This document shows, piece by piece, positions 1 through 51,407 of a DNA stretch of 52,304 nucleotides; position 1 is the first letter of the stretch, and each line of letters begins with the position of its first letter. The notes beneath the pieces were generated by a model. The model was given only the letters and a program-made list of their open reading frames with translations. It searched no databases and was not told the origin of the DNA. The DNA is from a virus. The stretch is from positions 1-52,304 of the IMG/VR virus record IMGVR_UViG_3300019458_000043. The stretch is one strand, 5' to 3'. The position numbers and the translations under genes were made by a program.

Positions 1-1154
1 ACCTCATCCCTACCCGCCCCGCCGGAGGTAATAACGTCCGGCAGCATATCTCGGAGCGTAAGAATGGGGCTACCCGCCTTCAAGCCGCTCCCGCTAGCAA
101 ACAGTGTCCAGAACTCAGCCGCCTTCGGTTGCATCTTGAAGTTAAGCGCCACGGAGCCATGCTCTTGGTACTTCTCCGGGTCGGTATTGCTCGTCGCCAT
201 CAAGTAGTAGAGGGCACAAGCGTAAGGGAATGACAAGAATCGACTGATCCGCCGACCATCCCTACCGCCCCCGGCCTCGACGCCCCACAGAAAGAGTATT
301 GCGTCCACCAATTTTGGGTGGTTGGCAATAAAATCCAACGCTTCCGAGTGGGGGAAGTGGGGTGCATCGGACACTTTCTGGCCCCCGGAACGCAGCCAAG
401 CTAGCCGGATCGCCCCCGCGAGGGAGTTCGCCAGCCTCTTTTTCACGTTTTCCGTGAAGTACGTGCTGTTGATCGGGTCAACCGGCCCCTCGAACCGTCG
501 ATCCCGATACAGTACATCCCCCAAAGAACGCTTCTGGCCCAGGTCGAGGGTGTCAATTACCTCCCTGGACTCTTTTACACCTCGAACGATGATACATTCC
601 ATCGTTAAGGGGCCGTTGATGCCGAACCGCTTATACACGTTCGGTGTCCTTTGCCGCAACTGCTCGCCCAGGATGAGACCTACGAAGCGGTGGGCGCCAC
701 TCTCGACCTGATCGCAGCGGTCGATGATGATTGTTTCACCATTCAACTGCCATTTGCTCCGCAACAACTCACTCATATACCGCCGAGCGAGGGCAATCCG
801 AAACGGCCGGTTCTTGACGTTGTTGGCTAGGAAGACTTTTGTGCGATTGTAGTCGGAGAAGTGGTAGAAAGTACGTTCATCCTTGGGTACTTCCGTCCAG
901 CCAATCGCTTTCTTGGCTTGCTCAACCGTAAAAGCACCGTGGTTGCCTCCCTTTTGGTACACCGTGGCCGTTACAGCCTTGTGGACCACTTTGGGGGTGG
1001 GGAATTTGAGAAACACAGGTTCTTGCTTCTCACCTTTACCCTTACCTCCCTTCCCTTTTGTTGTTCCTTCGTCACCCGACTCATTTTGTTGGTGTTCCGG
1101 TCCGGATTGATGTTTCGGGACTGGCCGTCGTTTCAAACTCAAACCTGTACTCAT
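1..1154 (-). CDS. ParB/DGQHR-like phage protein, 3' end outside the window
   Basis: The frame is open from ATG at 1154 to the window edge (384 codons, no stop), so the gene is partial. After a basic, Gly/Lys-rich N-terminal tail comes a segment of the form NRPFRIALARRYMSELL, then WQLNGETIII, then ESGAHRFVGLILG. This layout matches the ParB-like phage family in which a residue block NGEPI is followed by DGQHRLAA; here the usual D-G-Q-H-R is degenerate (S-G-A-H-R). Such proteins are thought to bind DNA or nucleotides, but their role in phages is unclear. Upstream of ATG on the coding strand is AGGGGGAACG, a plausible ribosome-binding site. A copy of each interspersed word (AATAAAATCCA at 327 and CCCCCAAAGAA at 518) lies inside the gene on the opposite strand. 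The ParB assignment is inference; the gene itself is secure. Confidence 0.75.
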   Translation of the reverse strand, partial: MSTGLSLKRRPVPKHQSGPEHQQNESGDEGTTKGKGGKGKGEKQEPVFLKFPTPKVVHKAVTATVYQKGGNHGAFTVEQAKKAIGWTEVPKDERTFYHFSDYNRTKVFLANNVKNRPFRIALARRYMSELLRSKWQLNGETIIIDRCDQVESGAHRFVGLILGEQLRQRTPNVYKRFGINGPLTMECIIVRGVKESREVIDTLDLGQKRSLGDVLYRDRRFEGPVDPINSTYFTENVKKRLANSLAGAIRLAWLRSGGQKVSDAPHFPHSEALDFIANHPKLVDAILFLWGVEAGGGRDGRRISRFLSFPYACALYYLMATSNTDPEKYQEHGSVALNFKMQPKAAEFWTLFASGSGLKAGSPILTLRDMLPDVITSGGAGRDE

Positions 1155-1210
1155 ACGTTCCCCCTTGTGTGAGATGAAAAACAGGAATCGTCAATTACTG
1201 ACCTTTGCCT

Positions 1211-1338
1211 ACTGCCCCAGCTACTCTGCCCCAGCTACTCTGCCCCAGCTACCCAGCCACCCAGCTACCCAGCTACCCAGCTACCCAGCTACCCAGCTAC
1301 CCAGCTACCCAGTACCTAGCTACCCAGCTACTCTGCCC
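1211..1338. repeat. Tandem repeat, 14-nt then 8-nt units
   Basis: Two to three copies of a CTACTCTGCCCCAG-type unit are followed by about eight copies of CTACCCAG, then one more CTACTCTGCCCC. It lies between the first two minus-strand genes, and no supported gene crosses it. It looks like a slippage-prone simple repeat; no function can be assigned. Confidence 0.85.
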
Positions 1339-1351
1339 CCACACACTACCC

Positions 1352-1519
1352 CTACTTGTTCCATCCGTACTGGTTCCACTTACGCTTGCTGCTACTCTTT
1401 TTACCCCCTTTCTTCTCTTTTCGTTTGAAATCCTTGTACGACACCTGCGGTGTCACAGCAGCTTCGATCTCAGTCCTTGTCGAAACTTCCAGATCTCCCA
1501 TCCTAATAATACGAACCAT
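1352..1519 (-). CDS. Small basic protein, 55 aa, unknown
   Basis: The start was chosen at ATG 1519 because GGAGGAAGCT sits directly upstream on the coding strand; an upstream ATG at 1591 has no comparable ribosome-binding site. The N-terminal half is mixed and may be folded (MVRIIRMGDLEV), while the C-terminal half is very basic (KRKEKKGGKKSSSKRK), typical of nucleic-acid binding tails. It is the first gene of the minus-strand block leaving the divergent control region. The family is not recognised. Confidence 0.6.
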   Translation of the reverse strand: MVRIIRMGDLEVSTRTEIEAAVTPQVSYKDFKRKEKKGGKKSSSKRKWNQYGWNK

Positions 1520-1587
1520 AGCTTCCTCCATCCTTGCGGTTCTAGGGATTCTGCTGTTTACAGAGTCGCACCCCGCGACAATGCACA

Positions 1588-1653
1588 GCAATAAACGCCA
1601 CTATACCTTACCCCACCACCATATACTATATACTAGGAACTGGCGTTTATTGC
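1588..1653. repeat. Inverted repeat with 13-bp perfect arms
   Basis: The left arm GCAATAAACGCCA (1588-1600) and right arm TGGCGTTTATTGC (1641-1653) are perfect complements separated by 40 nt. The arms contain a variant of the interspersed AATAAA-CCA word, and this right arm is the only minus-strand copy found in the window. The long spacer argues against a simple terminator and suits a paired protein-binding site, either an operator or an origin element. Confidence 0.8.
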
Positions 1654-4814: not shown

Positions 4815-4949
4815 TTCTAGCTACCTCGGCCCCCAGCTTAGGGAATTATTGCTCGTAGCAGTAACACTCCCTTTGAAGTGGTGGGGCGGGCGCCACCATG
4901 ACATCCGCCTCACCCTTTTCATTTCCATTCCATTGCACTAATAAAAACC

Positions 4950-6206
4950 ATGCCACCCAGAACACTTCCCAAAAAACGCAAAACAGCCCCAGTAAATATT
5001 GTGGCAACCCCAAATCTTAAACATTCATTATGGCAAGGCCCGGAGAAGGACGGAATAACTTTCTCGTTACTATCTCGGTTCCTTTGCTGTCGTGAACGAT
5101 TTCGTCTTCGCGTGGTCGAGGGGTTGGTTGAGGACGAAGGCTTTAACCACACCATTGAGTTTGGCTCGATCTGGCACGCCGGCGAAGAGGCCTTTGCTCG
5201 AAAGAATGACTGGGCACAGGCAATGGCAAACTACACATCCGTTTTGTTTCAGAAGTACCCCACCGATGAAAAAGAGATTGCCAAGTGGTATTCTATCGCC
5301 AAAGCCCAATTCCCCATCTACATCGACTACTGGCGACACCACCCCGACCAGCGGAGGCGGCGGCCGGTTCTTGAGGAAGCTGCTTTTCGCGTACCGTACC
5401 TGCTGCCATCTGGTCGTAAGGTTATTCTTCGTGGCAAATTTGATTGCGTCCTCCTTCTCGGAAATTCGCTGTACTTACAGGAGAACAAAACAAAGGGAAC
5501 TATTGATGAGGAGGGAATCCAAAAAACCGTTGCCCAAAACTTGCAAACGATGCTCTACCAGATAGCCCTTCGACAGTCATTGCAACACATCGCAACAGCG
5601 GGACAGAATGACTGGTTTATAACCAACATCTGTGGTTCCAGACCGCATGAAAGTATTTTGTGTGAGCTAACCCCATTTCGTTCACCAAAGAGGGGCTACA
5701 AGATAGGTGGTGTCATCTACAACGTAGTCCGTCGGCCACTAGCGGATCGTTTCGCGATCAAACAACGTAAGAGCGAAACCTTACCCCAATTCTACAAACG
5801 GCTTGCCAGCGTCATCAAAGGAAAACCAGACTATTTCTTCCACCGTTGGAACGTTGGGTTGCAACAGTCGGACATCAATCGCTTCCGCCAGCGAGTGTTC
5901 GACCCCATACTCGAACAACTTTGCGACTGGTGGGAATGGGTATCTGTAGATCCTTTCGACCCTTGGACCCCTCGGATGCTATTTCGCGTTCAAAGCTCAA
6001 ACGAGTGGAAGCTAGCTATGGTTAGTAACACCCACAAAACATCTCTCCCCCGCAACCAAACCCACTTCCAAGCCCCCTGGGGAGTCTATAACTCTCTAGC
6101 TGGCGGGTTTCGAGGTGACTACTTTGACTTTCTCACTTCCGAGGGCCGACGCACTTCTGGCCTTCGTAAAATCGACAATCTCTACCCTGAACTAACCTCG
6201 GAGTGA
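4950..6206 (+). CDS. RecB-family PD-(D/E)XK exonuclease
   Basis: This 418-aa protein has the Cas4/RecB-type nuclease layout: an N-terminal SLLSRFLCCRERFRL block (the SxLxxaxxCPxxfry-type opening), a histidine in IWHAGEEAF, then the core RGKFDCVL (Asp) and YLQENKTKG (E-x-K). Placed just before a Sak4-like annealing ATPase, it probably supplies the exonuclease of a phage recombination pair. Its ATG is the last base of the word AATAAAAACCA (4940-4950), so the start codon and the interspersed motif overlap. No Shine-Dalgarno sequence is apparent. Confidence 0.85.
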   Translation: MPPRTLPKKRKTAPVNIVATPNLKHSLWQGPEKDGITFSLLSRFLCCRERFRLRVVEGLVEDEGFNHTIEFGSIWHAGEEAFARKNDWAQAMANYTSVLFQKYPTDEKEIAKWYSIAKAQFPIYIDYWRHHPDQRRRRPVLEEAAFRVPYLLPSGRKVILRGKFDCVLLLGNSLYLQENKTKGTIDEEGIQKTVAQNLQTMLYQIALRQSLQHIATAGQNDWFITNICGSRPHESILCELTPFRSPKRGYKIGGVIYNVVRRPLADRFAIKQRKSETLPQFYKRLASVIKGKPDYFFHRWNVGLQQSDINRFRQRVFDPILEQLCDWWEWVSVDPFDPWTPRMLFRVQSSNEWKLAMVSNTHKTSLPRNQTHFQAPWGVYNSLAGGFRGDYFDFLTSEGRRTSGLRKIDNLYPELTSE

Positions 6207-6209
6207 ACC

Positions 6210-7308: not shown

Positions 7309-7363
7309 ACTTGCTAATAAACGCCGCGTTTCACCACTCTCCCCCAAAGAAAAGGAAAGCCCT

Positions 7364-8314: not shown

Positions 8315-8368
8315 GTGGTCGGCGAGTCCTTTGTACCAAAATCGCTAGGATTGTCAGCTAACCCTACA

Positions 8369-8448
8369 GTGGGAGGAAGTGCGAACCGTGCCCAGGGATT
8401 AAACAAGCGACGCGGGTTATGCCGCAGGATGCGTCTCTGGCCTCCCAC
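8369..8448 (+). ncRNA. Structured RNA element closed by an 8-bp stem
   Basis: GTGGGAGG (8369-8376) pairs perfectly with CCTCCCAC (8441-8448). Inside, GACGC and GCGTC can pair, with a CCAG/CTGG pairing outside them, giving a compact folded RNA in the 166-nt gap between two genes. It is not a tRNA: T-loop and anticodon-arm features are missing. It may be a leader element for the following gene or an RNA processing site. Confidence 0.45.
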
Positions 8449-8480
8449 CACATTTCAAACACATTGGAGAACTAACTAAA

Positions 8481-9002
8481 ATGGCTACGGTTAGTGCAAA
8501 ACTTGTTAGTGCAATACTTGAAGCCCAGCCCGATGCTCTGGGTCGCCCCGTTGACGTTTTCAACATAAAGGTGGGTCAAGACTTCAAACTCGACCTGCTT
8601 GTCCGAAACTACGACCCGAGGTGTGTCGGGGTCAGCCTGCTGAGCCTTAATCTTCGCTGGGACCCAAAAATCCTGGAGGAGATTACCCCCGACATACGAA
8701 AGTTAGTTACCCCCTATTTCCCCTCGACTGGCTTTGTGACTAGGGCAAGTGGTCAGATCATCAACCTTTCCGGCCACTACCACCCATTCGCTCATGGCCG
8801 GGGTGGGATAGGCAGGTTCATAGGTCAAGGAAAACACGAACGGTTCGTGACATTCCATTTCAAGGCTCTCAGCATAGGAACCACCGCTCTCAACTTCTCC
8901 TTCGGGCGGAATGGCTCTGCGTTATTCACCGAGGCGAATTGGAGCGTCCCGATAAGAACGCCGCAAATGTCTTGGCCCAACGTTATGGTTTACGTGAAAT
9001 GA
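8481..9002 (+). CDS. Cohesin-like beta-sandwich protein
   Basis: This 173-aa protein has the alternating strand pattern of cohesin-type domains: VGQDFKLDLLVRN, then GVSLLSLNLRWDPKILEEI, a Gly-rich GRGGIGRFIGQG turn, and FVTFHFKALSIGTTALNFSF near the end. Cohesin domains normally bind dockerins or act as protein-protein modules. No signal peptide is visible, so this one is probably intracellular. It sits unexpectedly in the replication block, between the ssDNA-binding candidate and a nuclease, and its stop overlaps the next start. Confidence 0.6.
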   Translation: MATVSAKLVSAILEAQPDALGRPVDVFNIKVGQDFKLDLLVRNYDPRCVGVSLLSLNLRWDPKILEEITPDIRKLVTPYFPSTGFVTRASGQIINLSGHYHPFAHGRGGIGRFIGQGKHERFVTFHFKALSIGTTALNFSFGRNGSALFTEANWSVPIRTPQMSWPNVMVYVK

Positions 9003-9496
9003 TCCAACCCAAGCCAACCCGCTACGGCCCTTATTTGTTCAAGAGCCGTCTGGAAGCACGCTGGGCAGTCTTTCTCGATAACTGCCCCAGCGTACTTCGA
9101 TGGAGTTACGAACCAGTCCGCTTTCGTGAACTCCAAACGGGTTGGGATTACACACCCGACTTTAGTGTTGTCACCGCTGGTCGAAAGTTGTATTTGGAGG
9201 TCAAACCTATATTCCCAACAGCCGAGTACCTCCATGTCCTCCAAGTATTTGCCATTGCTATCGCCCAGCAAGACAGGAACCTATCGTTTCGACCCGGCAA
9301 GCCCCCATTATTACAGGCACTTGTTCTCGGTTACGGCAACTTCTGGGACGACGATATAACTTTGCTCTCCGTAGAATCCCCAAACCTTCGCTTCTCACTC
9401 CAGAGCGTGTTTGCCAATTCTAAAACCGCACGTATCCTTGCCAACAACTATCGCTTCGACCTCCCCCAAAGAAAGAAAGGCCGCAGACGCAAATGA
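8999..9496 (+). CDS. PD-(D/E)XK nuclease-like protein
   Basis: ATG 8999 overlaps the cohesin-like stop (ATGA). The 165-aa protein shows the TnsA/restriction-type pattern FKSRLEARWAVFLDN (helix with catalytic Glu), then YTPDFSVV (Asp) and YLEVKP (E-x-K). This arrangement is common in small phage endonucleases of unknown target. The C-terminus is basic (PQRKKGRRRK), and the interspersed word CCCCCAAAGAAAG encodes part of it. The stop overlaps the DNA polymerase start. Confidence 0.78.
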   Translation: MIQPKPTRYGPYLFKSRLEARWAVFLDNCPSVLRWSYEPVRFRELQTGWDYTPDFSVVTAGRKLYLEVKPIFPTAEYLHVLQVFAIAIAQQDRNLSFRPGKPPLLQALVLGYGNFWDDDITLLSVESPNLRFSLQSVFANSKTARILANNYRFDLPQRKKGRRRK

Positions 9497-11487
9497 AACT
9501 ACTGGCAGTTGACACGGAAACTACCGGAGTCGATTTGTGGCACGGGTGCAAGCCCTTCTACGTTTCGACCTGTAACGAGGATGGGGCAATGCGATCCTGG
9601 GAATGGGATGTGAACCCAGAGACACGGGAACCTATCATCCCGCAACGAGAAAAGCGTGAGGTTTACCTTTACCTCGCCAAGCACCAACTCATCTTTCATA
9701 ATACAAAGTTTGACGTGCGTGGTTTGAATCGTATCGGTATCACCATCGACCGATGGGATATGCACGACACACTGGTTGCCAGCCACGTTGTTGCTTCTGG
9801 GGAATCACATAAGTTGAAAGATTTGGCTTTGTTACACCTCGGTATCGACGATAGGGATCAGCAGTCACTGCAAGAGGCTGTTAATGAGGCACGTCGCTAC
9901 GGTCGTTCGCTAGGTTGGCGAATCGCCAAAGTTGGTGATCCACATTTCCCTGCTATGAAAAAGACAGCCAAGGATGGTTGGTGGCCTATGGATATGTGGT
10001 TGCCGCGTGCGGTTGCAAAGCACGCCGGCTATCCGAAAAATCATCGTTTCTGGAGCGTATGCTCGAACTACGCCGATACCGACGCCGAGCGTACCATAGG
10101 TTTATGGTACGCTCTTTGGGATGAGATGAAACAGGAGGACTTACTCGATATTTACGAAACCCGTCGCAGGCTTTTGGAAGTTACGTTTATTATGGAAGAA
10201 CGTGGAGTTACAGTAAACCGTAGCCGCTTAATAAACGCCAGAAAAATATATATACGTAAAGCCCAAGCAGCCGAATCACTCTGTTTTAGGCTGGCCGACT
10301 TCAAGGTCGATAACTTAGCTAGCCCCAAACAAGTCGAAGGTCTTCTATACGGTAACTTCGGCCTCAAACCGATCAAACAGACAAAGGCGAGCACGCCCGA
10401 CAACCCACACTTTGCTACCGACAAAGATACAATCAGCAAACTCCAAACACAAGTGCGACCACAAAGTAGGGCTGGGTTGTTCCTCACTAATCTGGTTGCC
10501 AATCGTAAAAATCGCAAAGCTGCAAGCTATCTCGACGAGTACGAAATACGTGGGATGACACCCTACTATCTCGATATGAAAGCACAGCGGTTGTGGTGGG
10601 TTCTAAACCCTAACTTTAATATCACTGGTACTCGCACCCCGCGATTCTCCAGCAACAGCCCAAACCAGCAGAACGTGTCGAAGCAAGAGGTTCGTGACGA
10701 GGATGGCAATATCGTTGAATCTTACAACCTTCGAGAGGTGTTCGGGCCTGTACCGGGTCGCGAATGGTATTCACAAGATTATGAGAACATCGAACTTCGC
10801 ATCTTTGCATATTCATCAGGGGACAAGCGGCTTATCAAAGCCTTTGAATCCGGGTACAGTGTCCATCTACTCATAGCCGAAATTCTCTTTCCTAAAGAGT
10901 GGAAGCTATGCCAGCGACTTGGCGTGTCGTTCAAGGATTATTACAAATCGACACTTTACCAGTGGACTAAAAACGGCAACTTCTCTATTATCTACGGGGC
11001 CAGTGAGGCTAAGGCCGACTCAACTTACCATTTGGATGGTGCTTATGCCAAGGTACGCAAAGAGTTTCCACTTATAAGGCGAGTAACTGAGGAAAAGTCG
11101 AACGAAGCCAGGGAATACGGTTACGTGACTACTCTAGGTGGTTATCGCCTCCAGGTGGCTAGCAACGAACCGCACAAAGCACTCAACTATTTTGTCCAGG
11201 GTACTGCCGGCTGGTGCATAATCCTAGGTATGGTCCGCATTTTCGAGTACCTACGAGATTTTCCCAGCTACTACATGATTATGCAAATCCACGACGAACT
11301 GGACTTCGACTTTCCAAAGCACAAACGGAATCTTGCAATAATCTCTGAATGTGCTAGATTGATGGCCCAAAGTGGTGGTGATATTGGTATTCCTACCCCA
11401 GTCGATGTTTCCCGCCACCGACAGACCTGGGCACAAGGCGAGCACGTCACCACTACATCCCTAGATAATTCACGGATCGCAGTATAG
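9493..11487 (+). CDS. Family A DNA polymerase with 3'-5' exonuclease
   Basis: The 664-aa protein has an N-terminal proofreading domain with Exo I DTETTG (residues 7-12), Exo II NTKFD and an Exo III-like YADTD. The polymerase domain has motif A DYENIELRIFAY (Asp about 429), motif B KNGNFSIIYGA (Lys about 492) and motif C QIHDELDFDF (His about 600). The size and lack of a 5'-nuclease domain resemble T7-type phage replicases. It is the probable replicative polymerase and would need to accept any modified pyrimidine triphosphate made by the downstream genes. Confidence 0.95.
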   Translation: MKLLAVDTETTGVDLWHGCKPFYVSTCNEDGAMRSWEWDVNPETREPIIPQREKREVYLYLAKHQLIFHNTKFDVRGLNRIGITIDRWDMHDTLVASHVVASGESHKLKDLALLHLGIDDRDQQSLQEAVNEARRYGRSLGWRIAKVGDPHFPAMKKTAKDGWWPMDMWLPRAVAKHAGYPKNHRFWSVCSNYADTDAERTIGLWYALWDEMKQEDLLDIYETRRRLLEVTFIMEERGVTVNRSRLINARKIYIRKAQAAESLCFRLADFKVDNLASPKQVEGLLYGNFGLKPIKQTKASTPDNPHFATDKDTISKLQTQVRPQSRAGLFLTNLVANRKNRKAASYLDEYEIRGMTPYYLDMKAQRLWWVLNPNFNITGTRTPRFSSNSPNQQNVSKQEVRDEDGNIVESYNLREVFGPVPGREWYSQDYENIELRIFAYSSGDKRLIKAFESGYSVHLLIAEILFPKEWKLCQRLGVSFKDYYKSTLYQWTKNGNFSIIYGASEAKADSTYHLDGAYAKVRKEFPLIRRVTEEKSNEAREYGYVTTLGGYRLQVASNEPHKALNYFVQGTAGWCIILGMVRIFEYLRDFPSYYMIMQIHDELDFDFPKHKRNLAIISECARLMAQSGGDIGIPTPVDVSRHRQTWAQGEHVTTTSLDNSRIAV

Positions 11488-11495
11488 GAGTAAAC

Positions 11496-12695
11496 ATGGG
11501 TCATAAAGATCTCGGTGTACGAAACTACAACCCTTCCCTTGCCGCCCAGCAAACCAAAACTGGCAAGACCTACTTGGACAAAATTCGTAAGTTATCCCCT
11601 TACGAACGGTTGCTGTATTGGGTTTGCGAACGGCACCAAATCCACATCAACCGTTTTCCAGAGGGTGCCTACCCAACCGGCTGGTCCACAACAAACGGAA
11701 CCACGAGACGACAACGAACTCGGCATGTCAGTCAGACCGACCCACCTTGGACCGAAGACCCAATCCTCCAAACTGTATTCTTTTGCAACCCTTATCGGGA
11801 GAATGACAAAGTTACCGCTTACCTTCGCGATAATTTTAGGGAGAAGAACAAAAACAGCCCGTCGGCTTTTATGGGGTGTATTCTGCTCCGCTGGTACAAT
11901 TATATCCCAACTATGTCGAAGTTAATAAAAGCCGGGATTCCACACTCATTCGATACCGGCAAAGGCAAGCATGGTTGGGACTTACGTACCTACCTCTCTA
12001 TGTTAACCAAATTGCGTGACGAACGAAACGAACAGCTCTTTGGTGGTGCCTACATTATCCGCCCAATCGTTGATGGTAAGACAGGCGCTCGCAAGGTGGA
12101 GAGCATTGGCGAGTTACTTACCAATATGGCACTCGACGCCGACCTTTATCCACAAATTACTGGCAAGCACAAAACCCTGATGGGTCTTTCGCCCAGAACT
12201 TACGAGTCTTTGGGTAGTTCGACAGACGAAGACCAAGCCGGTTCGATGGCTTTTGCCTTTGCTCGACTCCGCGAGTTTAGTGGGATGGGCAAGTTTTACA
12301 ACTACCAGTTTATAGGGGACTTAGCTTACACCCACGTACTCCACAACGCTCCAGATTGGTTGACCTGGGGGTTCTGTGGCCCCGGTACCTCGCGAGGGTT
12401 GGTACGTCTTAACTGCCCATCTGGTAAAGCTACGTTACCGAACGGCAAGCGACTCCCTCGCCTTATGCCACTCCAACGAGGCTGGCAGGAACGATTGTTG
12501 CACGTCCAGGAACGAGTGAATAAGGATTTGAACCTTTCCCCCAAAAAAGATAGCAAGAACGGCGGCGAGGTTAGGCGGATGCAATACATCCACATGAGAG
12601 ACTTGTGCAACTGTCTTTGCGAGTACGATAAGTACGAGCGTGCCCTATTCAACGAACGGTCAATAAAGCGACCGTATTACGGACAAGGCAATTAA
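11496..12695 (+). CDS. aGPT-PPlase-like DNA base hypermodification protein
   Basis: This 399-aa protein carries the block YERLLYWVCERHQIHINR followed by PWTEDPILQTVFFCNPYREN and DKVTAYL. That pattern matches the alpha-glutamyl/putrescinyl-thymine pyrophosphorylase and HMUDK-helical family, a helical glycosylase-like fold found with thymine hypermodification genes in phages. In that pathway 5-hydroxymethyl-dU in DNA is activated and replaced by an amine or amino-acid adduct. The nearby hydroxymethylase-like gene supports the assignment. No separate P-loop 5-hmdU kinase was recognised in the window. The C-terminal third has no motif I recognise. Confidence 0.65.
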   Translation: MGHKDLGVRNYNPSLAAQQTKTGKTYLDKIRKLSPYERLLYWVCERHQIHINRFPEGAYPTGWSTTNGTTRRQRTRHVSQTDPPWTEDPILQTVFFCNPYRENDKVTAYLRDNFREKNKNSPSAFMGCILLRWYNYIPTMSKLIKAGIPHSFDTGKGKHGWDLRTYLSMLTKLRDERNEQLFGGAYIIRPIVDGKTGARKVESIGELLTNMALDADLYPQITGKHKTLMGLSPRTYESLGSSTDEDQAGSMAFAFARLREFSGMGKFYNYQFIGDLAYTHVLHNAPDWLTWGFCGPGTSRGLVRLNCPSGKATLPNGKRLPRLMPLQRGWQERLLHVQERVNKDLNLSPKKDSKNGGEVRRMQYIHMRDLCNCLCEYDKYERALFNERSIKRPYYGQGN

Positions 12696-21169: not shown

Positions 21170-21245
21170 TCTGCCTTAGCAAATCTGTGGCATAATAAAA
21201 ACCAGTTTCCGGGCCTTATGTACCTTTACCCCTACTGGTGCAACC

Positions 21246-23183: not shown

Positions 23184-23382
23184 CAAGGACCACCCAATTT
23201 GGAAAACCATCCAGTTTGGTGTCACCATCGGCTCGCTGGCTCTGTTCCTTCGGTTTAACTACAACACCTTCGATGAACGAGACTTGAAAACCATCGGCGG
23301 GACTGTAGTAGCTTACTTGTTGGCCCAATTCGCCCCGTTCCTGTTACCCGGCAATAAAAACCAGAATCCACCCGCCGCATAG
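23167..23382 (+). CDS. Small two-helix membrane protein, 71 aa (holin-like candidate)
   Basis: ATG 23167 overlaps the portal C-terminus by 17 nt with GGAGG upstream. Two hydrophobic stretches (TIQFGVTIGSLALFL and TIGGTVVAYLLAQFAPFLLP) flank a charged loop, with a short polar N-terminus and an Asn-rich end. This is the topology of small holins, but the location in the head module is unusual, so it may instead be a virion membrane-contact protein. AATAAAAACCA overlaps its 3' end. Confidence 0.5.
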   Translation: MGKLLDKDHPIWKTIQFGVTIGSLALFLRFNYNTFDERDLKTIGGTVVAYLLAQFAPFLLPGNKNQNPPAA

Positions 23383-26143: not shown

Positions 26144-26205
26144 CCCCCGGTTAATAAAAACCAAACCTTCGGGGCCATGCCCCAACAACACAAGGAGAAT
26201 CGAAG

Positions 26206-28031: not shown

Positions 28032-28526
28032 ATGGCACCTACAACTGGTTTCAACAACAAACTCTATCGAAACACCGGCAGCGTAGCCACCCCGGTATGG
28101 TCCGAAGTGAATCAGATCGGTGACGTTTCTATCGACGGCCTTACCCGCGGCCTTGCAGAGTTGAAGCGGCGGGCAACCCAGTTCACCCTCAACCTACCAT
28201 CACTCATCCAATCCATCACTGCTAGCTTCCGCTTGCATCATGGACTCGACAGTTCCACGTTCACGGCACTCCGACAAGCGTTCTTCGCCGCCACAGTCAT
28301 CGAGTGGGCTATCATGGACGGTGATATCGACGTAGCTGCCGCCGAAGGGTTGCGTATCCCTATGCTAGTGTCCGACTTTCCGTGGGAACAACCATTGGAA
28401 GACGTTTCGGGCCACGACGTAAAGCTGGCCGTCGGTTACATGACTAGTGGCGGCAATGAAGTTGTTCCATCTTGGCTAGTCGTTTCACAGAATCTCCAGT
28501 GGACAACCACCACAACCACCACGTAA
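28032..28526 (+). CDS. Major tail-tube-like protein with poly-Thr tail
   Basis: The 164-aa protein begins GFNNKLYRNTGSVATPVW and continues VNQIGDVSIDGL, the two-strand opening typical of siphovirus tail-tube proteins, then LKRRATQFTLNLP and a central WAIMDGDIDVAAAEGL. It ends WTTTTTTT, with Thr codons ACA, ACC and ACG mixed. The AATAAAAACCA word overlaps its stop codon. AGGAGT is present upstream. Confidence 0.7.
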   Translation: MAPTTGFNNKLYRNTGSVATPVWSEVNQIGDVSIDGLTRGLAELKRRATQFTLNLPSLIQSITASFRLHHGLDSSTFTALRQAFFAATVIEWAIMDGDIDVAAAEGLRIPMLVSDFPWEQPLEDVSGHDVKLAVGYMTSGGNEVVPSWLVVSQNLQWTTTTTTT

Positions 28527-28564
28527 TAAAAACCAAAATCTCTAACCCATAGGGGGAACCACTC

Positions 28565-30970: not shown

Positions 30971-31010
30971 CGCTTTGGCAATAAAAACCACTTTCAGAAA
31001 GGGGAACCCG

Positions 31011-33102: not shown

Positions 33103-33547
33103 AGCGGTAGGTTTAGAAGACCACCAACGAATGTTAAAGGATTTCCGAAACCGAATCGCCGACACCCACAAACTTCAGATGAAACAACTCGGTATGAAGG
33201 AGGATGAAGTAACCGAGGAAAAACCAGGAGAGGAGGACACTATGGGGGTTGCTCTAGCTCGAGACATCATTTACAACATCAATACCCCGACCACCCCACC
33301 ACCATCAGCAGAACTAAAGGGAGAACCCCAGGCAGCGGTTCCACTCCCACCAAACCCGGTAACTAATAAATCTCCTTGGTGGAAGCCTATGCTGCCTGCC
33401 GCTATCGGTGCCGGCCTCACCGGGATCGGCCTCGCGGGGTGGGATTGGCTCAGCTCATCTCCCCCAAAAGAAAACCCAGCCCCGGTCACAATCAACCAAC
33501 TTGATTCGTTACAGTACGACTTGCAGTTCGGGAAACCTTCCCGCTAA
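32990..33547 (+). CDS. Unknown membrane-associated late protein, 185 aa
   Basis: ATG 32990 is inside the previous gene and has TTGGAGAAAC upstream. The N-terminal part is helical (LKQAAELIALWGPQLSAGAK and MLKDFRNRIADTHKL). Near the end, MLPAAIGAGLTGIGLAGW is a Gly-rich hydrophobic segment that may cross a membrane, followed by SSPPKENPAPV, which encodes the interspersed word CCCCCAAAAGAAAA. The start could also be ATG 33131. Confidence 0.5.
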   Translation: MGNLPDSDPNQSSTLHNPLKQAAELIALWGPQLSAGAKAVGLEDHQRMLKDFRNRIADTHKLQMKQLGMKEDEVTEEKPGEEDTMGVALARDIIYNINTPTTPPPSAELKGEPQAAVPLPPNPVTNKSPWWKPMLPAAIGAGLTGIGLAGWDWLSSSPPKENPAPVTINQLDSLQYDLQFGKPSR

Positions 33548-33580
33548 TAAAATCCAAAAATTGCCACTAGGGGAACCATA

Positions 33581-38253: not shown

Positions 38254-39173
38254 TGCCCCTACACTTAGGTATAAAAGACAGTTCCACAGAAAGTACCGTT
38301 AAGGTGGAACTAAAGAGCGGTACGTTAGCTTTGGAGCACAAAACTCGTAAAGATACTCACTACGTTCTAGCCGACGATATTCTTGATGATGAGGATGCTA
38401 TTCTAGCTACTACCGGCGTACCCGGTATGTACTCTATTCAAAGCGGGTGTGTAGTAACAGATTTGAACCCTAGTGTATCATCAACTATCATCCACCCAAC
38501 AACAGGTTTGCTAACACAGTTATGGGAAGTCGAAGTTTCCTATGACTCCAACGTTCCGCCGGACATAAACCAACCGATTACCTCTCAAACACCCAAGGTG
38601 CGTTGGTACCCAGAAGCTGAGGAAGAGGTTCTTGAGAAGGATGCGATCACTAACGAGCCAATTACCACCGCTTGCGATGAGCCAATCATCATCGAGCACC
38701 AATACTACCAGATTATCCAGGAAATTCGTCGGTACGAGGCTTACCCATTTGACCAGCTTCTCCAGTACACCTATGGCAACCACGTCAACGAAACAGAGTT
38801 TTGGGGTGCCCCACCGGGTTGTGCCCTTCTCCTTCCAATGGAAGTTGAGGAGGAAGCCATCAACCAACAACGATTTTGTATTGTAACCTACAAGGTAAAA
38901 TACAAGATCCGATTTGACGACAACGGCGACATGCTGGAAGATACACACAAAGCTGCCCCGCTCCATCAAGGAAACCTTTACTTCCCAAAACTGGATATAG
39001 CCCTAAGCCCGCTGGGTGTCCCCAAGCGTTTCCTCGACAAGGATGGCAACCCCGGTACTGTCAACCTGGACATTTTCGGTGTACCGCTACCCCCAGGCCA
39101 ACCACCCCAGTACCTCTCATTCAATCGGTTCCCTAAAGCTGACATAAACTTGTTGAACCTCGGCCCCTTCTAA
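38253..39173 (+). CDS. Distal tail protein candidate, 306 aa
   Basis: The start overlaps the tape-measure stop. The sequence is acidic and beta-rich (STVKVELKSGTLALEHKT, PGMYSIQSGCVVTDLN, LWEVEVSYDS), with repeated Tyr-rich strands (HQYYQIIQEIRRYEAYPFDQ). Position immediately after the tape measure is typical of distal tail or baseplate hub proteins, but no known domain could be named. The word AATAAAAACCA overlaps its stop codon. Confidence 0.55.
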   Translation: MPLHLGIKDSSTESTVKVELKSGTLALEHKTRKDTHYVLADDILDDEDAILATTGVPGMYSIQSGCVVTDLNPSVSSTIIHPTTGLLTQLWEVEVSYDSNVPPDINQPITSQTPKVRWYPEAEEEVLEKDAITNEPITTACDEPIIIEHQYYQIIQEIRRYEAYPFDQLLQYTYGNHVNETEFWGAPPGCALLLPMEVEEEAINQQRFCIVTYKVKYKIRFDDNGDMLEDTHKAAPLHQGNLYFPKLDIALSPLGVPKRFLDKDGNPGTVNLDIFGVPLPPGQPPQYLSFNRFPKADINLLNLGPF

Positions 39174-39189
39174 TAAAAACCAAAATCCC

Positions 39190-41333: not shown

Positions 41334-43298
41334 ATGAAACTTACAGTAGGGATGGCTACCTACGATGATTACGACGGTGTAGTTTTTAGCATCCAAGCCT
41401 TGCGGCTCTATCACCACGTCGATGAGCTACTGGTTGTAGATAACAACCCCGGTTCGCTTGCCGCTCGGCACCTCGCCGATTTTTGTCAAAAAACTGGGGC
41501 ACGGTATATCCCTATGCCGGAGCCCGTAGGGACTTCCGCCCCTCGCAATCGCGTCTTTACCGAAGCTACCGGCGATGTTGTATTATGTATGGACAGCCAT
41601 GTACTAATCCAGCCAGGTGCTTTGCAATTACTTCGAGAGTGGTTTATTGATGTATCATCCCACAACGATCTCGATATGGCCCTGCTTCACGGGCCGATGA
41701 TGCTCGACTCCTTCAATGGTATTCAGACACACTTCGATAGTGTCTGGCGTGCCGAAATGTGGGGTATCTGGGGTCACGCTTGGCGATGCCGTTGTTCAGA
41801 CCACGCCCGGTTCATTTTCTCAATGCAACCGTCTGAGTACCAGCAAACATACTACCTGCCAATCTCCCCCAAAGAAAACCTCGCTGCCTGCCCCTACTGT
41901 GGTAACAAACTCCCCGACCTATCTTGGTCCCAACACGAATCTCAAATGTTGGCCCTCGGCTTTGAGCCTTGTGCTCTAAAAGACGATGAACCCGCGTTCG
42001 ATATTCCAGGCCAGGGTCTCGGTCTCTTTGCCTGTCGTAAAGATGCGTGGTTAGGCTTTAACCCACACTTCCGCGGCTTCGGTGGGGAGGAAATGTATAT
42101 CCATGAAAAGTTTCGGAAAGCTAACCGCCGTGTGTTTTGTCTCCCATTCCTCAAATGGTGGCACCGCTTCGGGCGTCCCAGTGGGGTAAAGTATCCACTA
42201 ACCCGCTGGAACAAGGTCCGCAACTACGTGCTCGGCCACAACGAATTGGGGTTGCCACTCGATCCGGTCCATGCCCATTTTGTAACCACCAACCTCATGA
42301 CCCAAAGCCAGTGGGACTACCTGGTAGCCGATCCTATCCATCGGCCTTCCAACCCGAATGTATTGTCGGTACCTTCCCCCAAAGAAATCCCAGCCCCGTC
42401 CATAACTCAACTGTACCAGGCAGCCCGTGGGACATCTCGAGATCTTGACCAACATATGGATCAGTTGCGGTTGTTGGCGGGGCTTTGTGATAACATAACT
42501 GAGATATCAAAACGAAAAGAATCCACCATCGCTTTTGTTGCCAGCGGCCGTCCAGTCATTTCCTACAATACTGAGTCTGGGGACCAAACCTACCAAACCC
42601 TAATCCGCATAGCCCCCAACTTCCAATGGCACGACCAAAACTCCACGCAAGTCGAGTCTATCGCAGCTACCGACCTGTTGTTCATCGACTCCGAACATAC
42701 CTACGCACGGTTGAAGGAGGAACTGAACAAGTACGCTACCGCTGTCCGACGGTTTATCATATTACATGATACTCAGTTGCACGGCGAGCGGGGGGCCGAC
42801 AACGGGCCAGGTCTAAACCAGGCATTGCGAGAGTTTACAGCCGACAACCCCGCTTGGTTCGTCTATTATTACACACCTAACCAGTTCGGGTTAACGGTAC
42901 TTGGTATCCGACCGAGTGACCGCCCAGCTAATAAAATCCACGCTTGGGCACCTATGTATGGTCCCGGTACCGAGCTAACTAATTTACTCAGTTCGCTTGG
43001 TGTCGTGTCCAAACCGAACTGTACCTGTCGGGCAATGGCAAACCAGATGGATATCTGGGGGGTCCAGGGTTGTAGAGAGCCGGCCCATCACCAGCAGATT
43101 CTTACCACCATCCATAGTAACAAAGACAAGTGGGGGTGGAAGGATAGGGTACTTGCCATCACAAAGGCTGTTACTAGTGGTCTAGCATTTAAGCTAAACC
43201 CACTCGACCCATTCCCCTCCCTGATCGACGAAGCGATCCGACGAGCGGAGTTAGCTGAACAATCAAGACTTACTTCCATCGAAATTGAAGGCCACTGA
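41334..43298 (+). CDS. GT2-like glycosyltransferase fused to methyltransferase-like domain
   Basis: Residues 1-300 of this 654-aa protein read as a GT-A glycosyltransferase: VGMATYDDYDGVVFSIQAL, VVDNNPGS, CMDSHV in the place of the usual DxD, and FRGFGGEEMYIHEKFRKANR. Residues about 390-525 resemble the class I methyltransferase/cephalosporin-hydroxylase-type fold: LLFIDSEHTYARLKEELNKY and RFIILHDTQLHG. A Cys-containing C-terminal domain (CTCRAMANQMDIWGVQGC) ends it. The likely role is adding and trimming sugars, on the virion or on host surface glycans. The stop overlaps the next ATG. Confidence 0.8.
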   Translation: MKLTVGMATYDDYDGVVFSIQALRLYHHVDELLVVDNNPGSLAARHLADFCQKTGARYIPMPEPVGTSAPRNRVFTEATGDVVLCMDSHVLIQPGALQLLREWFIDVSSHNDLDMALLHGPMMLDSFNGIQTHFDSVWRAEMWGIWGHAWRCRCSDHARFIFSMQPSEYQQTYYLPISPKENLAACPYCGNKLPDLSWSQHESQMLALGFEPCALKDDEPAFDIPGQGLGLFACRKDAWLGFNPHFRGFGGEEMYIHEKFRKANRRVFCLPFLKWWHRFGRPSGVKYPLTRWNKVRNYVLGHNELGLPLDPVHAHFVTTNLMTQSQWDYLVADPIHRPSNPNVLSVPSPKEIPAPSITQLYQAARGTSRDLDQHMDQLRLLAGLCDNITEISKRKESTIAFVASGRPVISYNTESGDQTYQTLIRIAPNFQWHDQNSTQVESIAATDLLFIDSEHTYARLKEELNKYATAVRRFIILHDTQLHGERGADNGPGLNQALREFTADNPAWFVYYYTPNQFGLTVLGIRPSDRPANKIHAWAPMYGPGTELTNLLSSLGVVSKPNCTCRAMANQMDIWGVQGCREPAHHQQILTTIHSNKDKWGWKDRVLAITKAVTSGLAFKLNPLDPFPSLIDEAIRRAELAEQSRLTSIEIEGH

Positions 43299-45141: not shown

Positions 45142-45262
45142 AGCAATAAAAACCACATTTCCCGACCGTACCCCTTATATTCTTTATTCTTTGGGGGGAA
45201 ATAGCTAGGGGGTTGCGACCCTATTATAAGTCGCAACCCCCCAGCAATAAAAACCACATTCC
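45142..45262. repeat. Hairpin flanked by direct copies of the interspersed word
   Basis: Two near-identical 20-nt copies of CCAGCAATAAAAACCACATT begin at 45140 and 45241. Between them GGGGGTTGCGAC (45208-45219) pairs perfectly with GTCGCAACCCCC (45230-45241) around a 10-nt loop, and TTCTTTGGGGGG (45187-45198) is the only reversed copy of the second interspersed word. The hairpin could terminate the helicase gene transcript. The flanking direct repeats look like a duplication or insertion footprint. Confidence 0.6.
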
Positions 45263-45285: not shown

Positions 45286-47340
45286 CTACAACGCCGCTGG
45301 CCCATCTACCCATACCAGTTCGTCGATAGCCCGCGTGATAGCTACGTACTCCAAGTGCCGTTCCTGCCCCCTAGCCCAATCCGTTTTAGCCATTGGGTGC
45401 GGCAGCAGGTCCGGGCGAAGCACGAACACCCGCCCCGCCTCCAACCCTTTAGCTCGATGGATACTCGACAGCAGGATGCGACCCTTCGGTTCTTCACCTT
45501 CGTTCTTCGATTCGATATTAGCGTAGTTACCCTTGCGACCATGCCACTGTTGCTTTTCGATACCGAAGACCTTGTCGATGTTGGCGTATAAGTCACCTAT
45601 CTCCACAGCCCCGTCGCAAAACACCCGCAAACATTCAACACGGTCTTGCAACGTAATCGCGGCTTCCTCATCCTTTTGCTTACGCTTGGCAAGCCGCTCC
45701 TGTTCCCGCCGGTGGTATTCATCTAGCCATACCAGAAAGTCGGAGACGTTGCTTTGCTTGCTGTTGCGGATAATAGTTTTCAGCCCGTCGCCAATGTTGC
45801 GACCTTGGATATTCGCCCGCCGGCCTTGTCGGATGTAGCGAAACGCCAAACCCACCAGCGGGGCATTCACGCGACAGAGTAGCATGTCGCCCTCTTGTGG
45901 TGCTCGCGGGTTATCCTTATTATCGAGCTGGTCCCAAGGCAGCCGGTTTACCATCCCTGCCCCGTTGCTGGGGTGTGCTTCAAAGTCGGGTACTATCTCT
46001 TTAGCCCTAGCAACGATAGCCTTGCCGCATCGTCGTGTTACGGTCAACGTCATCTGTTGCACCCCCCGACCACCCCCAGCGACCCCACCCCCAGCGACCC
46101 CTCCCCCGCCCTTGCTACCCACAACTCCAACCCTACTAACCCCGTCCTCACCATTGCTGCCCGCCCCGACGGCACCCCCCAACATCCGTTCCATGTTGTT
46201 AATAGAGTCCACGTCGCTGCCGGCGAACCCATAGATAGCCTGGCACTCGTCGCCTACCAGCAAGATCCGTTCCCCTGCCCGAAGAATAAACTCTTGCTGG
46301 CATCGGTTCAGGTCTTGGCCTTCATCCACCAGTAGCAACTGGTGCCGGGGAATAGTAAGTTTGTTCACTACGGGCAACCAGAGCATATCGTCGAAGTCGA
46401 TCTCTTTAGCCACCTGCTCGTAGCTCTGCCGCCACAGTTGGGGCACGGTCTGGAATATCTCATCTCGCTGGCCCTCGTCGCCCAGGTCCACCCCGTAGTA
46501 CATGGCGAGTGCCTCCATTGCCTCCCTGCTAGGTTCCACCCCGTCGGCAGCCCCGGCAACCGCCGTTCCCAGCCCGTTGCCCCAGCCCGCGAGGTTGATC
46601 TTCGAGTAGTGTACCAGCTCTTCGATTGCCTGAATGACAATCGCCTTCTGCTTCCACACTTCCCGCAGGTCGATGCCCCACAACACCTCCAGCATGTTGC
46701 GGGTCCGGTACTTGTTCACCGCTCTCCAACCGAGGCGATAGTGCCGGCCGCACACGGCATTGCCCATCTTATGCACCGTACTGAACGAGAGTTGCACCCC
46801 GATTCTCCCCAAAGAATCGACCAGCCAGCGGTACTTGCCGGAGAACTCGTCCACGATACTGTTGTTGAAAGCACAGTACGTGACCTCGCGGGGCTTCTCT
46901 TGCGAAATGAAGTCCCAGACCACTTGCTGCTGCGGGCTGGGCTGGGGTTCAAAGCCGAGGTGTCGGCAGACGTTCCCCCATACCTTACCCCTATACGCCC
47001 ACGCAGCACCCAGGACCAAGGTGAATGTCTTGCCGGTCCCAGCCCTGGCTCGGACAATACCGTGCGGGGCTAGTCCCCCTGCTCGCCGGGGCTGTGCCTC
47101 TTTCGTTACCTGCCTTGCCGCTTGCCCCACCCCTGCCTGCCCCACCCCTACCTGCCCCGGTCGTACCCCCGTCGCCTTGCCCCTCACCGCTCGCAGCATA
47201 TCCGCTTGCTGTGCGGTAAGCTCCGATTTTGGTGCCCCCTCTTTGGTCTTTGCCTGTATGTTACCCTTCGTCTTCTCCACCTTCACAACAGCCTTGACAG
47301 CCTTGTTGGCCTTCGACGGTGTGACTTTTCGCTTTGCCAT
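45286..47340 (-). CDS. UvrD/PcrA-like superfamily 1 helicase
   Basis: The start is set at the ATG at 47340 with AAAGGG upstream; the frame extends further but without a good site. The 684-aa protein has a basic N-terminal tail, then motif I ARAGTGKTFTL (about residue 98), motif II LLLVDEGQDL, motif III ILLVGDECQAIYGFAGSD, and C-terminal SSIHRAKGLEAGRVFVL plus EYVAITRA. This is the complete SF1A set, so it should unwind DNA with 3'-5' polarity during repair or replication. A Gly/Val-rich insert sits between motif III and motif IV. Confidence 0.9.
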   Translation of the reverse strand: MAKRKVTPSKANKAVKAVVKVEKTKGNIQAKTKEGAPKSELTAQQADMLRAVRGKATGVRPGQVGVGQAGVGQAARQVTKEAQPRRAGGLAPHGIVRARAGTGKTFTLVLGAAWAYRGKVWGNVCRHLGFEPQPSPQQQVVWDFISQEKPREVTYCAFNNSIVDEFSGKYRWLVDSLGRIGVQLSFSTVHKMGNAVCGRHYRLGWRAVNKYRTRNMLEVLWGIDLREVWKQKAIVIQAIEELVHYSKINLAGWGNGLGTAVAGAADGVEPSREAMEALAMYYGVDLGDEGQRDEIFQTVPQLWRQSYEQVAKEIDFDDMLWLPVVNKLTIPRHQLLLVDEGQDLNRCQQEFILRAGERILLVGDECQAIYGFAGSDVDSINNMERMLGGAVGAGSNGEDGVSRVGVVGSKGGGGVAGGGVAGGGRGVQQMTLTVTRRCGKAIVARAKEIVPDFEAHPSNGAGMVNRLPWDQLDNKDNPRAPQEGDMLLCRVNAPLVGLAFRYIRQGRRANIQGRNIGDGLKTIIRNSKQSNVSDFLVWLDEYHRREQERLAKRKQKDEEAAITLQDRVECLRVFCDGAVEIGDLYANIDKVFGIEKQQWHGRKGNYANIESKNEGEEPKGRILLSSIHRAKGLEAGRVFVLRPDLLPHPMAKTDWARGQERHLEYVAITRAIDELVWVDGPAAL

Positions 47341-47486
47341 GCTAGAACCCTTTGCTAATAAAAACCAGTGTCTGAACCCAGTACACCCACAACACTCTCC
47401 AACCACACACCTCGACATCCCGCTGCTTTTACTTACTGGTACGCTGTACCTTACTGGGCTGGTACGCCGTACTCCGAGCAAGTACA

Positions 47487-47951
47487 TCACCCAGCCTGGT
47501 CCACTTTGCCGCTGTTGTCCCACGCACCAGGGTCGCTGCCGTAGTACCTCGCACAGAGCCGGCAGATGAACCCCTTGCGAGGCCGCCTCAGCTTTTTCCA
47601 AAACGCCTCGCATTCACACGGTCCCCGACCCGGCGGGGTTACAACCTCCCCTTCCCCCTTCCGCCGCACGACTGTAGACATTACCTCCGCAACCCGCTTG
47701 CCCCCACCCCGCAACCCCCTACCCCGCAACCCTACCCCGTTCCCAGCCCCATCCTTGCCCGTTGCCTTACCTCCTACGGCCTGCTTGCCTCGCCTTGCGG
47801 CCTGCTTGCCTCGCCTTGGCACGGGGGGCTTTCGTTTGCCGTTTCGCCGTTCGCTCTGCTTTGCCTGTCGTGCCTCCACTTTTCGTTTCCCGGCCAGTTT
47901 CGACTTTGCTTGCCGAGATGCCAACTTCTGCGTGGTATTCTCTCGCACCAT
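47487..47951 (-). CDS. Basic protein with C-terminal zinc ribbon, 154 aa
   Basis: ATG 47951 (MVRENTTQK) is preceded by TGGAGG on the coding strand. The first 90 residues are Lys/Arg/Gln/Gly-rich and low-complexity; the end has CECEAFWKKLRRPRKGFICR followed by LCARYYG, a likely four-cysteine zinc site. It resembles a disordered nucleic-acid-binding tail plus a small zinc domain. The first 185 nt overlap the upstream gene in another frame. Confidence 0.5.
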   Translation of the reverse strand: MVRENTTQKLASRQAKSKLAGKRKVEARQAKQSERRNGKRKPPVPRRGKQAARRGKQAVGGKATGKDGAGNGVGLRGRGLRGGGKRVAEVMSTVVRRKGEGEVVTPPGRGPCECEAFWKKLRRPRKGFICRLCARYYGSDPGAWDNSGKVDQAG

Positions 47952-49412: not shown

Positions 49413-49505
49413 AGTTCATTCCCTTATTTAGAGTTTGCCACAAATAAAAACCACGTTTCCTATCCCGGTCGCCAGCATAATTCCCCAGCGTATATCGCGG
49501 GGGCT

Positions 49506-50543: not shown

Positions 50544-50718
50544 AACTATTCTCCCTAGTGTTTGTAGGTACTAAACATTTCCCTGCCAACCTCGCCGCAC
50601 CCCTACGCATCTTCCGGCATGTGTTGGGGGTACAATGGGGTCGGTCGCACTACACGCCGACCCAGCCCCCGCGAGGGCTTGGCCGGGGCTTGGCCCCCAG
50701 TATAACCGATTCGGGGCG
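50544..50718. other. Gap with GC-rich hairpins
   Basis: GGGTCGG (50638-50644) pairs with CCGACCC (50657-50663), followed by a run of GCCCCCGCGAGGGC and GGCCGGGGCTTGGCCCC pairings. It lies between two minus-strand genes and may be a terminator or processing site. No gene is supported. Confidence 0.45.
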
Positions 50719-50916
50719 TCAATACTGACACTCCGAGATCGGTACGAGTGTCATGCACTCGCGGTGATCGTAGCCGGTATGCACGCCACGCCGGCAATAG
50801 TCGCACGCCGAGGCGTGCAGTCCTCTGGTCAGGCCGTAGCGTGCGGCCTCTGTCTCGATTTCGTGTGCAGACCCAGCGGTCAGCAGATCAATTAGCCGGT
50901 CGTATTCTCGCATCAT
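50719..50916 (-). CDS. Small cysteine-rich protein, 65 aa
   Basis: ATG 50916 is preceded by CGGGAGAAAA. The N-terminal half is helical (MMREYDRLIDLLTAGSAHEI), and the C-terminal half has CDYCRRGVHTGYDHRECM followed by one more Cys, fitting a small zinc-binding domain. Unknown function. Confidence 0.6.
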   Translation of the reverse strand: MMREYDRLIDLLTAGSAHEIETEAARYGLTRGLHASACDYCRRGVHTGYDHRECMTLVPISECQY

Positions 50917-50952
50917 TTTTCTCCCGGCCCTTGCGGGCCAACTGCGTTTCAC

Positions 50953-51053
50953 CTCGCCAGGTTGCGGCAGTGTGCCGCAAGTACCCGTTGCCGGATGCGA
51001 GCCGGCTTACGCTGACGGGCAGAGCGGATTAGACACCTTGCCTGGTTGGGGGT
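50953..51053. other. Short gap with perfect hairpins
   Basis: TTGCGGCA-GTG-TGCCGCAA (50962-50980) is an 8-bp hairpin; CCGG repeats around 50990-51005 can also pair. Together with GGCCCTTGCGGGCC just to the left this forms a structured leader for the 65-aa gene on the minus strand. No tRNA features were found. Confidence 0.4.
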
Positions 51054-51305
51054 TTACCGCTTTCGCGTTACGATATCCGAAACCTGCCACCCGAAAGATA
51101 GCCACCGACCTGTTGTTGGCTGAATATCCTTCCCTTCTACAGTCCTTGCCAACCGCACCGACCGTTCCTCAATCTCGTAATAACCTTTGACGACAATGTT
51201 CTTCACAGCAGAATCGTCGGCAGGGTAGCAGTAGTCATACCGTAGCATATCCAGCGGGAAGTACCCAACCCCCGTTACTACAAAACTCTGGTAATAACCA
51301 GCCAT
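51054..51305 (-). CDS. Small protein, 83 aa, unknown
   Basis: ATG 51305 (MAGYYQSFVVTGVGYFPLDM) has GAGGTGTGAC upstream, preferred over an ATG 12 nt earlier. The LDMLRYDYCYPADD segment and the later beta-rich end suggest a compact single domain. The word AATAAAAACCA lies 42 nt upstream on the opposite strand. The family is not recognised. Confidence 0.65.
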   Translation of the reverse strand: MAGYYQSFVVTGVGYFPLDMLRYDYCYPADDSAVKNIVVKGYYEIEERSVRLARTVEGKDIQPTTGRWLSFGWQVSDIVTRKR

Positions 51306-51407
51306 GTCACACCTCATTTGTTGGAGTTGTTGGCGTTTGCCGTGTTAATAAAAACCAGTTCCGGGGGCTGGGGTAGCACGATACCCCAGCCCCCACCACT
51401 CGCGACT

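Follow-up and report, generated by a model that had tools for sequence, protein, structure and literature searches.

The DNA analysed here, called the window throughout (and W among the compared genomes), is a virus record of 52,304 bases representing the genome of a siphovirus, an uncultured tailed phage, along which a short asymmetric word recurs almost entirely on one strand. We refer to it as word A, with the exact form AATAAAAACCA, the wider pattern AATAAANNCC[AG] and the core AATAAANNCCA. The encoded proteins include an exonuclease, Sak4, a family-A DNA polymerase, dUMP hydroxymethylase-like and HMUDK-like proteins, a primase, terminase, portal, a protease-capsid fusion and tape measure, together with a minus-strand block containing a UvrD-type helicase. 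Isolated relatives were sought: a search of phages with the DNA of positions 20000-40000 gave no near match and its terminase protein matched no isolated phage, its thymidylate-synthase-like protein reached about 40% at best and, among the matches listed, portal and polymerase stayed below 28% and capsid below 29%. A profile search of genome contigs with the terminase alignment likewise found no relative.

The exact form of word A occurs 13 times on the plus strand and never on the minus strand, compared with a mean of 0.03 and a maximum of 1 in 100 dinucleotide shuffles of the window, and allowing one mismatch gives 16 copies, all on the plus strand. The wider pattern gives 21 plus-strand copies and one minus-strand copy; the core gives 19 and one, against a mean of 0.155 per strand and a maximum of 2 in 200 shuffles that kept codons within genes and letters between genes. 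These shuffles rule out chance or base composition as the source. An unsupervised scan ranked the gapped word AATAAA..CCA as the top strand-locked word of the window, with a score of 58.8, whereas the best score in simulated copies (six Markov-1 and six codon-shuffled) was 14.6; scores near 35 are not telling on their own, because words resembling codon habits reach 35.8 in YuA and 34.9 in phiKMV. The exhaustive strand counts and the scan thus agree that the word is strand-locked beyond background, with reverse copies rare. A preliminary description of this DNA had placed all copies on the plus strand, which is true of the 13 exact copies; among the variants, one lies in reverse at 1641-1651. 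We take it as coincidence that AATAAA resembles a poly(A) signal, and a literature search with the exact letters gave 33 papers, of which the 20 listed are on other subjects by title.

The word and its polarity also persist in close relatives, as the preliminary description had asked of them. Relatives were retrieved with portal, polymerase and terminase queries, and counts here are given as copies on the terminase strand and on the other strand. The core occurs 17/1 times in G002, 14/0 in G023, 10/0 in G030 and 5/0 in G034, with lesser numbers in G025 (3/0), G029 and G032 (2/0 each) and G031 (1/0); the single copy in G024 lies opposite the terminase. Thirteen of the 22 records lack the exact core, and these comprise G022 and G028, which have spellings of their own (AATAAACCCAA, 14/0, and AATAAANNCC[TG], 20/0), short fragments, and distant records such as G026 and G035. 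Searched with genome-specific patterns, the seven larger genomes together hold 107 forward and three reverse copies, and the phage and its close relatives have about 10 to 21 copies. Nearly all copies in terminase-bearing relatives lie on the terminase strand, and several contigs open shortly upstream of the terminase gene, a position suggestive of a genome end; both features would suit orientation marks for DNA packaging or ejection. Nevertheless, G024, G026 and G035 share the terminase family without word A, and we know of no tailed phage said to need many packaging marks along its genome, so that we consider this function quite improbable.

Several features indicate that the sites are maintained. 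Among 391 mappable directed site-genome pairs, 90 place a site no more than 60 bases from the homologous position, compared with 14.6 expected; the pairs are not independent, and the pattern used for G030 and G034 was somewhat wider. At the end of the homologue of gene 38253-39173, for example, a site is found in five genomes (W, G022, G028, G030 and G034), in each with its own spelling. Judged by these sequence comparisons, word A sites are under selection, with lineage-specific spelling and partly shared positions. In G030, further letters on both sides of the word are conserved, such as ATTCC and AAGG downstream; conserved neighbouring letters are also visible by eye in G043, G022 and G034, with GATTCACC ahead of the word in G043. 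W and G002 show only faint extensions of this kind.

The polarity of word A belongs to the genome, whatever the direction of the genes. Across the seven genomes, 95 of the 107 sites can be assigned to plus-gene or minus-gene territory, and 14 of these lie in minus-gene territory (6, 1, 2, 1, 2, 1 and 1 per genome), where 14.0 are expected. In the window, seven sites (327, 45145, 45246, 47357, 49443, 51347 and 52043) lie in, between or beside minus-strand genes; the preliminary description had counted seven copies in minus-strand gene blocks. A natural inversion makes the same point: the helicase and ParB-like genes are on the minus strand in W, G028, G022, G034 and G023 and on the plus strand in G030, and the site at the helicase 3′ end (W 45246, G023 26941, G030 32451) is always on the plus strand of the genome, antisense to the gene in W and G023 and sense in G030. 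Together with the recurrence of the bias in relatives, these results bear out the earlier proposal of a word that takes its reading direction from the genome and not from the genes. Placement with respect to coding is also non-random. Between genes there are 52 of the 107 sites, as against 10.1 expected, and the other 55 lie inside genes; within plus genes, the sites are divided 24, 0 and 20 among the three frames (44 in all), with the frame that would read TAA avoided. This intergenic preference and frame avoidance are signs of a DNA site evading coding constraint.

These distributions bear on whether word A could instead be a promoter or another transcription signal, with the copies in minus blocks making antisense RNA. 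About half of the sites are intergenic, several stand 20-45 bases before the start of a plus gene, and the site is followed in one branch by a G-rich stretch, all as a promoter might have it. By contrast, the expected share in minus territory without any flip of orientation, an extended site at a minus/minus junction (G043 15128) and the many sites inside genes fit poorly. Also counting against a promoter, PF00940, the single-subunit RNA polymerase family, had no match in eight records, some of them incomplete, with phiKMV positive as a control, and sigma region 4 had none above cut-off in the same number of records, with one weak match in G030. We judge a transcription signal improbable. Still less probable, in our assessment, are repressor sites that halt transcription in the manner of the stoperators of Cluster A mycobacteriophages, to which a phage-encoded immunity repressor binds as a monomer. 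As described in passages of two papers, stoperators number 20 to 30 per genome, span 13-14 bp, have no dyad symmetry, are spelled differently in each genome, follow the direction of transcription and give no repression when reversed (PMC6550527, PMC9283540). Word A resembles them in size, number, asymmetry and genome-specific consensus, but its sites ignore gene direction, are oriented with the genome and in about half of the cases fall inside genes. The start-associated sequences of Cluster K, which the available passages of another source describe as short asymmetric words, typically in one orientation and typically 3-7 bp before start codons (PMC3203893), share the asymmetry and the mostly single orientation and fail on position, 55 of the 107 A sites being inside genes and the others at varied distances from starts.

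Gaps between A sites are more even than random, with p<0.05 in six of seven genomes (G034, p 0.12; combined, about 1e-8) and a mean spacing of some 2-5 kb. Such spacing in one genome-wide orientation would suit sites that are bound rather than nicked and that mark polarity for replication or recombination, for example as lagging-strand starts or as Chi-like signals for an enzyme moving along DNA in a single direction. A plus-strand excess of C in W, G002 and G028, which is seen in intergenic DNA and, whichever way a gene runs, at its third codon positions, would also suit a single direction of replication. However, G022, G030, G034 and G023 have the same sites with little or none of this skew, and the replication polarity suggested in the preliminary description is accordingly only weakly favoured. 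Moreover, the helicase and a Cas4-like nuclease do not track word A, and the nine-letter core with its extensions is longer than any primase or Chi site known to us. We regard replication or recombination marks as the main rival to the nicking proposed below, and as a possible though rather doubtful one.

A screen of gene content points to a candidate reader of word A. It drew on six word-bearing genomes in which the replication genes are covered and on 16 word-free relatives, and families of W and G022 genes that gave BLAST hits in four or more of the six were counted in both groups; G023, G025 and short records, in which the replication genes are not covered, were left out. Only one family, that of the nuclease at 8939-9496 in W, is present in all six word-bearing genomes and in none of the 16 others. 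Other families missing from the 16 occur in four or five of the six, most being short frames that overlap other genes, and include a Holliday-junction-resolvase-like gene (4/6); three short frames are found in 6/6 and 1/16. The gene contents do not suit the UvrD helicase, the Cas4-like nuclease or the ParB-like protein as readers: the Cas4-like gene is present in 12 of the 16 word-free relatives and the helicase was not found in G002. The ParB-like protein, encoded on the minus strand at 1-1154, carries a GQHRL motif and is one that we take to be ParB/sulfiredoxin-like; its family is seen in 6/6 word-bearing and 13/16 other genomes, and the G030 homologue matches phrog_5931. An HNH nuclease was found in none of eight records.

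By its predicted fold and PD..ExK residues, the 8939-9496 protein is a member of the PD-(D/E)XK nuclease superfamily. Six sequences share invariant E39, P73 D74 F75, E87 and K89, and the predicted model is fair (mean pLDDT 80). Against a library of predicted structures the model matches phage proteins (E 3.9e-7 at best), and its best VIA matches are Hjc (Z 8.7) and TnsA (Z 8.4). TnsA is an enzyme that cuts a single strand at either end of the transposon. In sequence, the W protein falls below the cut-off for the Pfam family TnsA-like_N (PF08722; 12.9 bits versus 26.5), and four of six members of the nuclease family match it, with a best E of 0.0022. A wider search found at least 572 relatives of the nuclease, of which 80 were kept. 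Only G022, L132 and L134 match over most of its length, and the other 77 score no more than 76 bits, none reaching beyond profile position 148 of 210. The pattern AATAAANNCC occurs 8/1 times at L132 and 3/0 at L134, compared with 13/14 at the 77 lower-scoring loci (0.91 Mb; pooled Fisher p 0.013), and the full L132 record has 11 copies on the nuclease strand and one on the other. L132 lies near G022 and G034, and L134 near W; both are thus added members of the same clade rather than independent gains, and we have graded the nickase proposal slightly lower for this reason.

The sequences thus show a word that is strand-locked, indifferent to gene direction, evenly spaced, conserved under lineage-specific spellings and, within the clade, found together with one nuclease family. 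We propose, tentatively and at somewhat less than an even chance, that a strand-specific nuclease encoded by the phage recognises a site with word A as its core and nicks a single strand wherever that site occurs, a function that does not figure in the preliminary description. The 8939-9496 nuclease would read the A site and would nick it rather than cut both strands, leaving fairly even single-strand interruptions along one strand of the phage DNA. These nicks could serve replication, maturation or packaging.

The closest parallel, on our best reading, is with the localized interruptions of T5, phiKMV and tf. According to passages of the tf paper, T5 and BF23 were the phages in whose DNA localized nicks first came to light, in the 1960s, and phiKMV-like phages have also been reported to have them; the DNA of Pseudomonas putida phage tf is nicked at all 14 consensus sites, on one strand, across two convergent gene sets; and in the LUZ24 group the main nick spelling differs among relatives at similar positions (PMC3517423). 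The same passages call the function of the nicks unknown and the nickase putative (PMC3517423). Shared with these phages are an asymmetric consensus, many copies and a single strand, and with tf also the independence of site strand from gene direction. Site-specific nicking is favoured here because tf offers the precedent of a word confined to one strand, with a copy number in the same range of about 10-20, where genes run in opposite directions. A sites crowd gene junctions, and three tf nicks are annotated in the record directly ahead of a start codon. The sequences themselves differ, as does the kind of evidence: tf nicks were mapped, whereas this siphovirus clade is uncultured and known from sequence alone. 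Here, sequence also offers a candidate nuclease, compared with only a putative nickase in tf. As a positive control, our scan of the tf genome placed nick-site words at the top (TACT.TGACG, 10/0; TACTGTGAC, 11/0), with TACTRTGMC found 14/0. In YuA, of which 49.9 of 58.7 kb were scanned, the top words looked codon-driven and none was recognised as alike.

Several points weigh against nicking by this nuclease. First, nicking is deduced from the letters of the genome, and no ATP-dependent ligase was found. Second, the structural matches of the nuclease model are modest (Foldseek against the PDB, E 1.6e-3 at best). Third, the six word-bearing genomes, L132 and L134 form one clade, and one origin may account for the whole gene correlation; several of the 16 word-free records are incomplete; G003, counted as word-free, has a weak one-sided excess (AATAAANNCC, 6/0) without such a nuclease; and G023 has word A in a record that ends before the nuclease region. 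Fourth, sites in G022, G030, G034 and G043 extend downstream into letters that, before a plus gene, often resemble a ribosome-binding site in position. Finally, the parallels are imperfect: the spacing of tf nicks is not even (p 0.40), unlike that of A sites, and the scan of phiKMV did not bring up its nick consensus, present 3/0.

A second strand-locked word, also absent from the preliminary description, accompanies word A in part of the clade. In word B, a pyrimidine tract leads into a terminal CAAAGAA, CACAGAA or CCAGAAA. As CCCCAAAGA, it occurs 13 times on the plus strand and twice on the minus strand of the window and 23/0 times in G028; variants are CCCACAGAA in G002 (15/1) and CTTCC[A]AGAA in G023 (10/1), and L134 has a like word, CCCCAGAAA (6/0). 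Its spacing too is more even than random in G028 (p 0.00005), G002 (0.0006) and G023 (0.02), with 0.05 in W, and its positions are independent of those of word A. Within the clade, word B goes with the HMUDK and hydroxymethylase genes, which are present in W, G002, G028 and the L134 record, although numbers are small. In G022, G030 and G034 these genes were not found and no B-like word was seen; as all three bear word A, we reject a tie between word A and thymine hypermodification. More distant HMUDK carriers have loose look-alikes of word B at most, and its likeness to a splice acceptor we take as coincidence. In the window, the 5-hydroxymethyldeoxyuridine (5-hmdU) DNA kinase-like and dUMP hydroxymethylase-like genes (11496-15064) point to hypermodified thymine in the phage DNA.

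More broadly, the two words could form a genome-wide polar position code, in which two strand-locked and fairly even sets of sites, at least one of them (A) read by a dedicated TnsA-like nuclease, act on the DNA itself, for example through nicks in one strand at set intervals that would release torsion, initiate strand synthesis or label the DNA as the phage's own. We offer this joint proposal as a speculation, conceivable but unlikely as it stands. If true, the code would be an undescribed DNA-processing system, with the nicks of T5, phiKMV and tf perhaps as simpler relatives. The signature runs through a whole clade and is statistically strong, its sites are shared, co-varying and evenly spaced, and there is a single candidate enzyme; what cuts, where and why can accordingly be tested with one protein and one oligonucleotide. 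The scan, because it recovers the tf nick motif from the genome itself (though not the rarer phiKMV one), can be used on other phage genomes, with care about codon-driven words. Positions of both words and of key genes are collected in Table 1.

Table 1 Word A sites, word B sites and key genes in the window
Feature	Position	Strand	Context
A site AATAAAATCCA	327..337	+	inside minus-strand ParB-like gene; G002 site 31514 at homologous place
A site AATAAACGCCA	1590..1600	+	
A site AATAAACGCCA	1641..1651	-	sole reverse copy
A site, exact word	4940..4950	+	last base is first of ATG at 4950 (PDDEXK_1 nuclease gene)
A site AATAAACGCCG	7316..7326	+	
A site AATAAACGCCA	10230..10240	+	inside DNA polymerase gene
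A site AATAAAAGCCG	11924..11934	+	inside HMUDK-like gene
A site, exact word	16120..16130	+	inside primase gene; G002 53334 and G034 41208 near homologous place
A site, exact word	21194..21204	+	gene junction
A site, exact word	23353..23363	+	gene junction
A site, exact word	26153..26163	+	gene junction
A site, exact word	28525..28535	+	overlaps stop codon; G002, G028 and G030 sites near homologous place
A site, exact word	30980..30990	+	start of open reading frame 30975-32384
A site AATAAAATCCA	33546..33556	+	gene junction
A site, exact word	39172..39182	+	stop codon of 38253-39173
A site AATAAAATCCA	42930..42940	+	inside plus gene
A site, exact word	45145..45155	+	minus/minus gene junction
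A site, exact word	45246..45256	+	just past 3′ end of minus-strand helicase
A site, exact word	47357..47367	+	in 5′ part of minus-strand helicase open reading frame
A site, exact word	49443..49453	+	minus/minus gene junction
A site, exact word	51347..51357	+	minus/minus gene junction
A site AATAAACCCCA	52043..52053	+	past last minus gene
Word B CCCCAAAGA	519, 3221, 7342, 9464, 16539, 19137, 28920, 31497, 37964, 41867, 42377, 46807, 49614	+	
Word B CCCCAAAGA, reverse copies	15615, 45188	-	
PD-(D/E)XK-type nuclease, TnsA/Hjc-like predicted fold	8939..9496	+	candidate reader of A sites
UvrD-type helicase	45286..47613	-	homologue on plus strand in G030
Terminase large subunit	18316..20859	+	used for orienting terminase-bearing relatives

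Other repeated words were seen in the same material. In the more distant relative G007 (loci L102-L105), TTTC.GGAAA behind a pyrimidine tract occurs 13/0 times and CTG.ATCCAA 12/0. Scattered copies of CGTTTATAC in G034 number nine on the terminase strand and one on the other, and TTTAGAAAC is repeated on one strand only, partly clustered, at about 6177-11420 in G024 and about 39532-40000 in G026 (terminase-oriented). Finally, short tandem repeats lie by both ends of the window record: CCAGCTACC, with a mostly 8-base period, at 1245-1309, and TACCACCAT, with an 11-12-base period, at 52100-52165.

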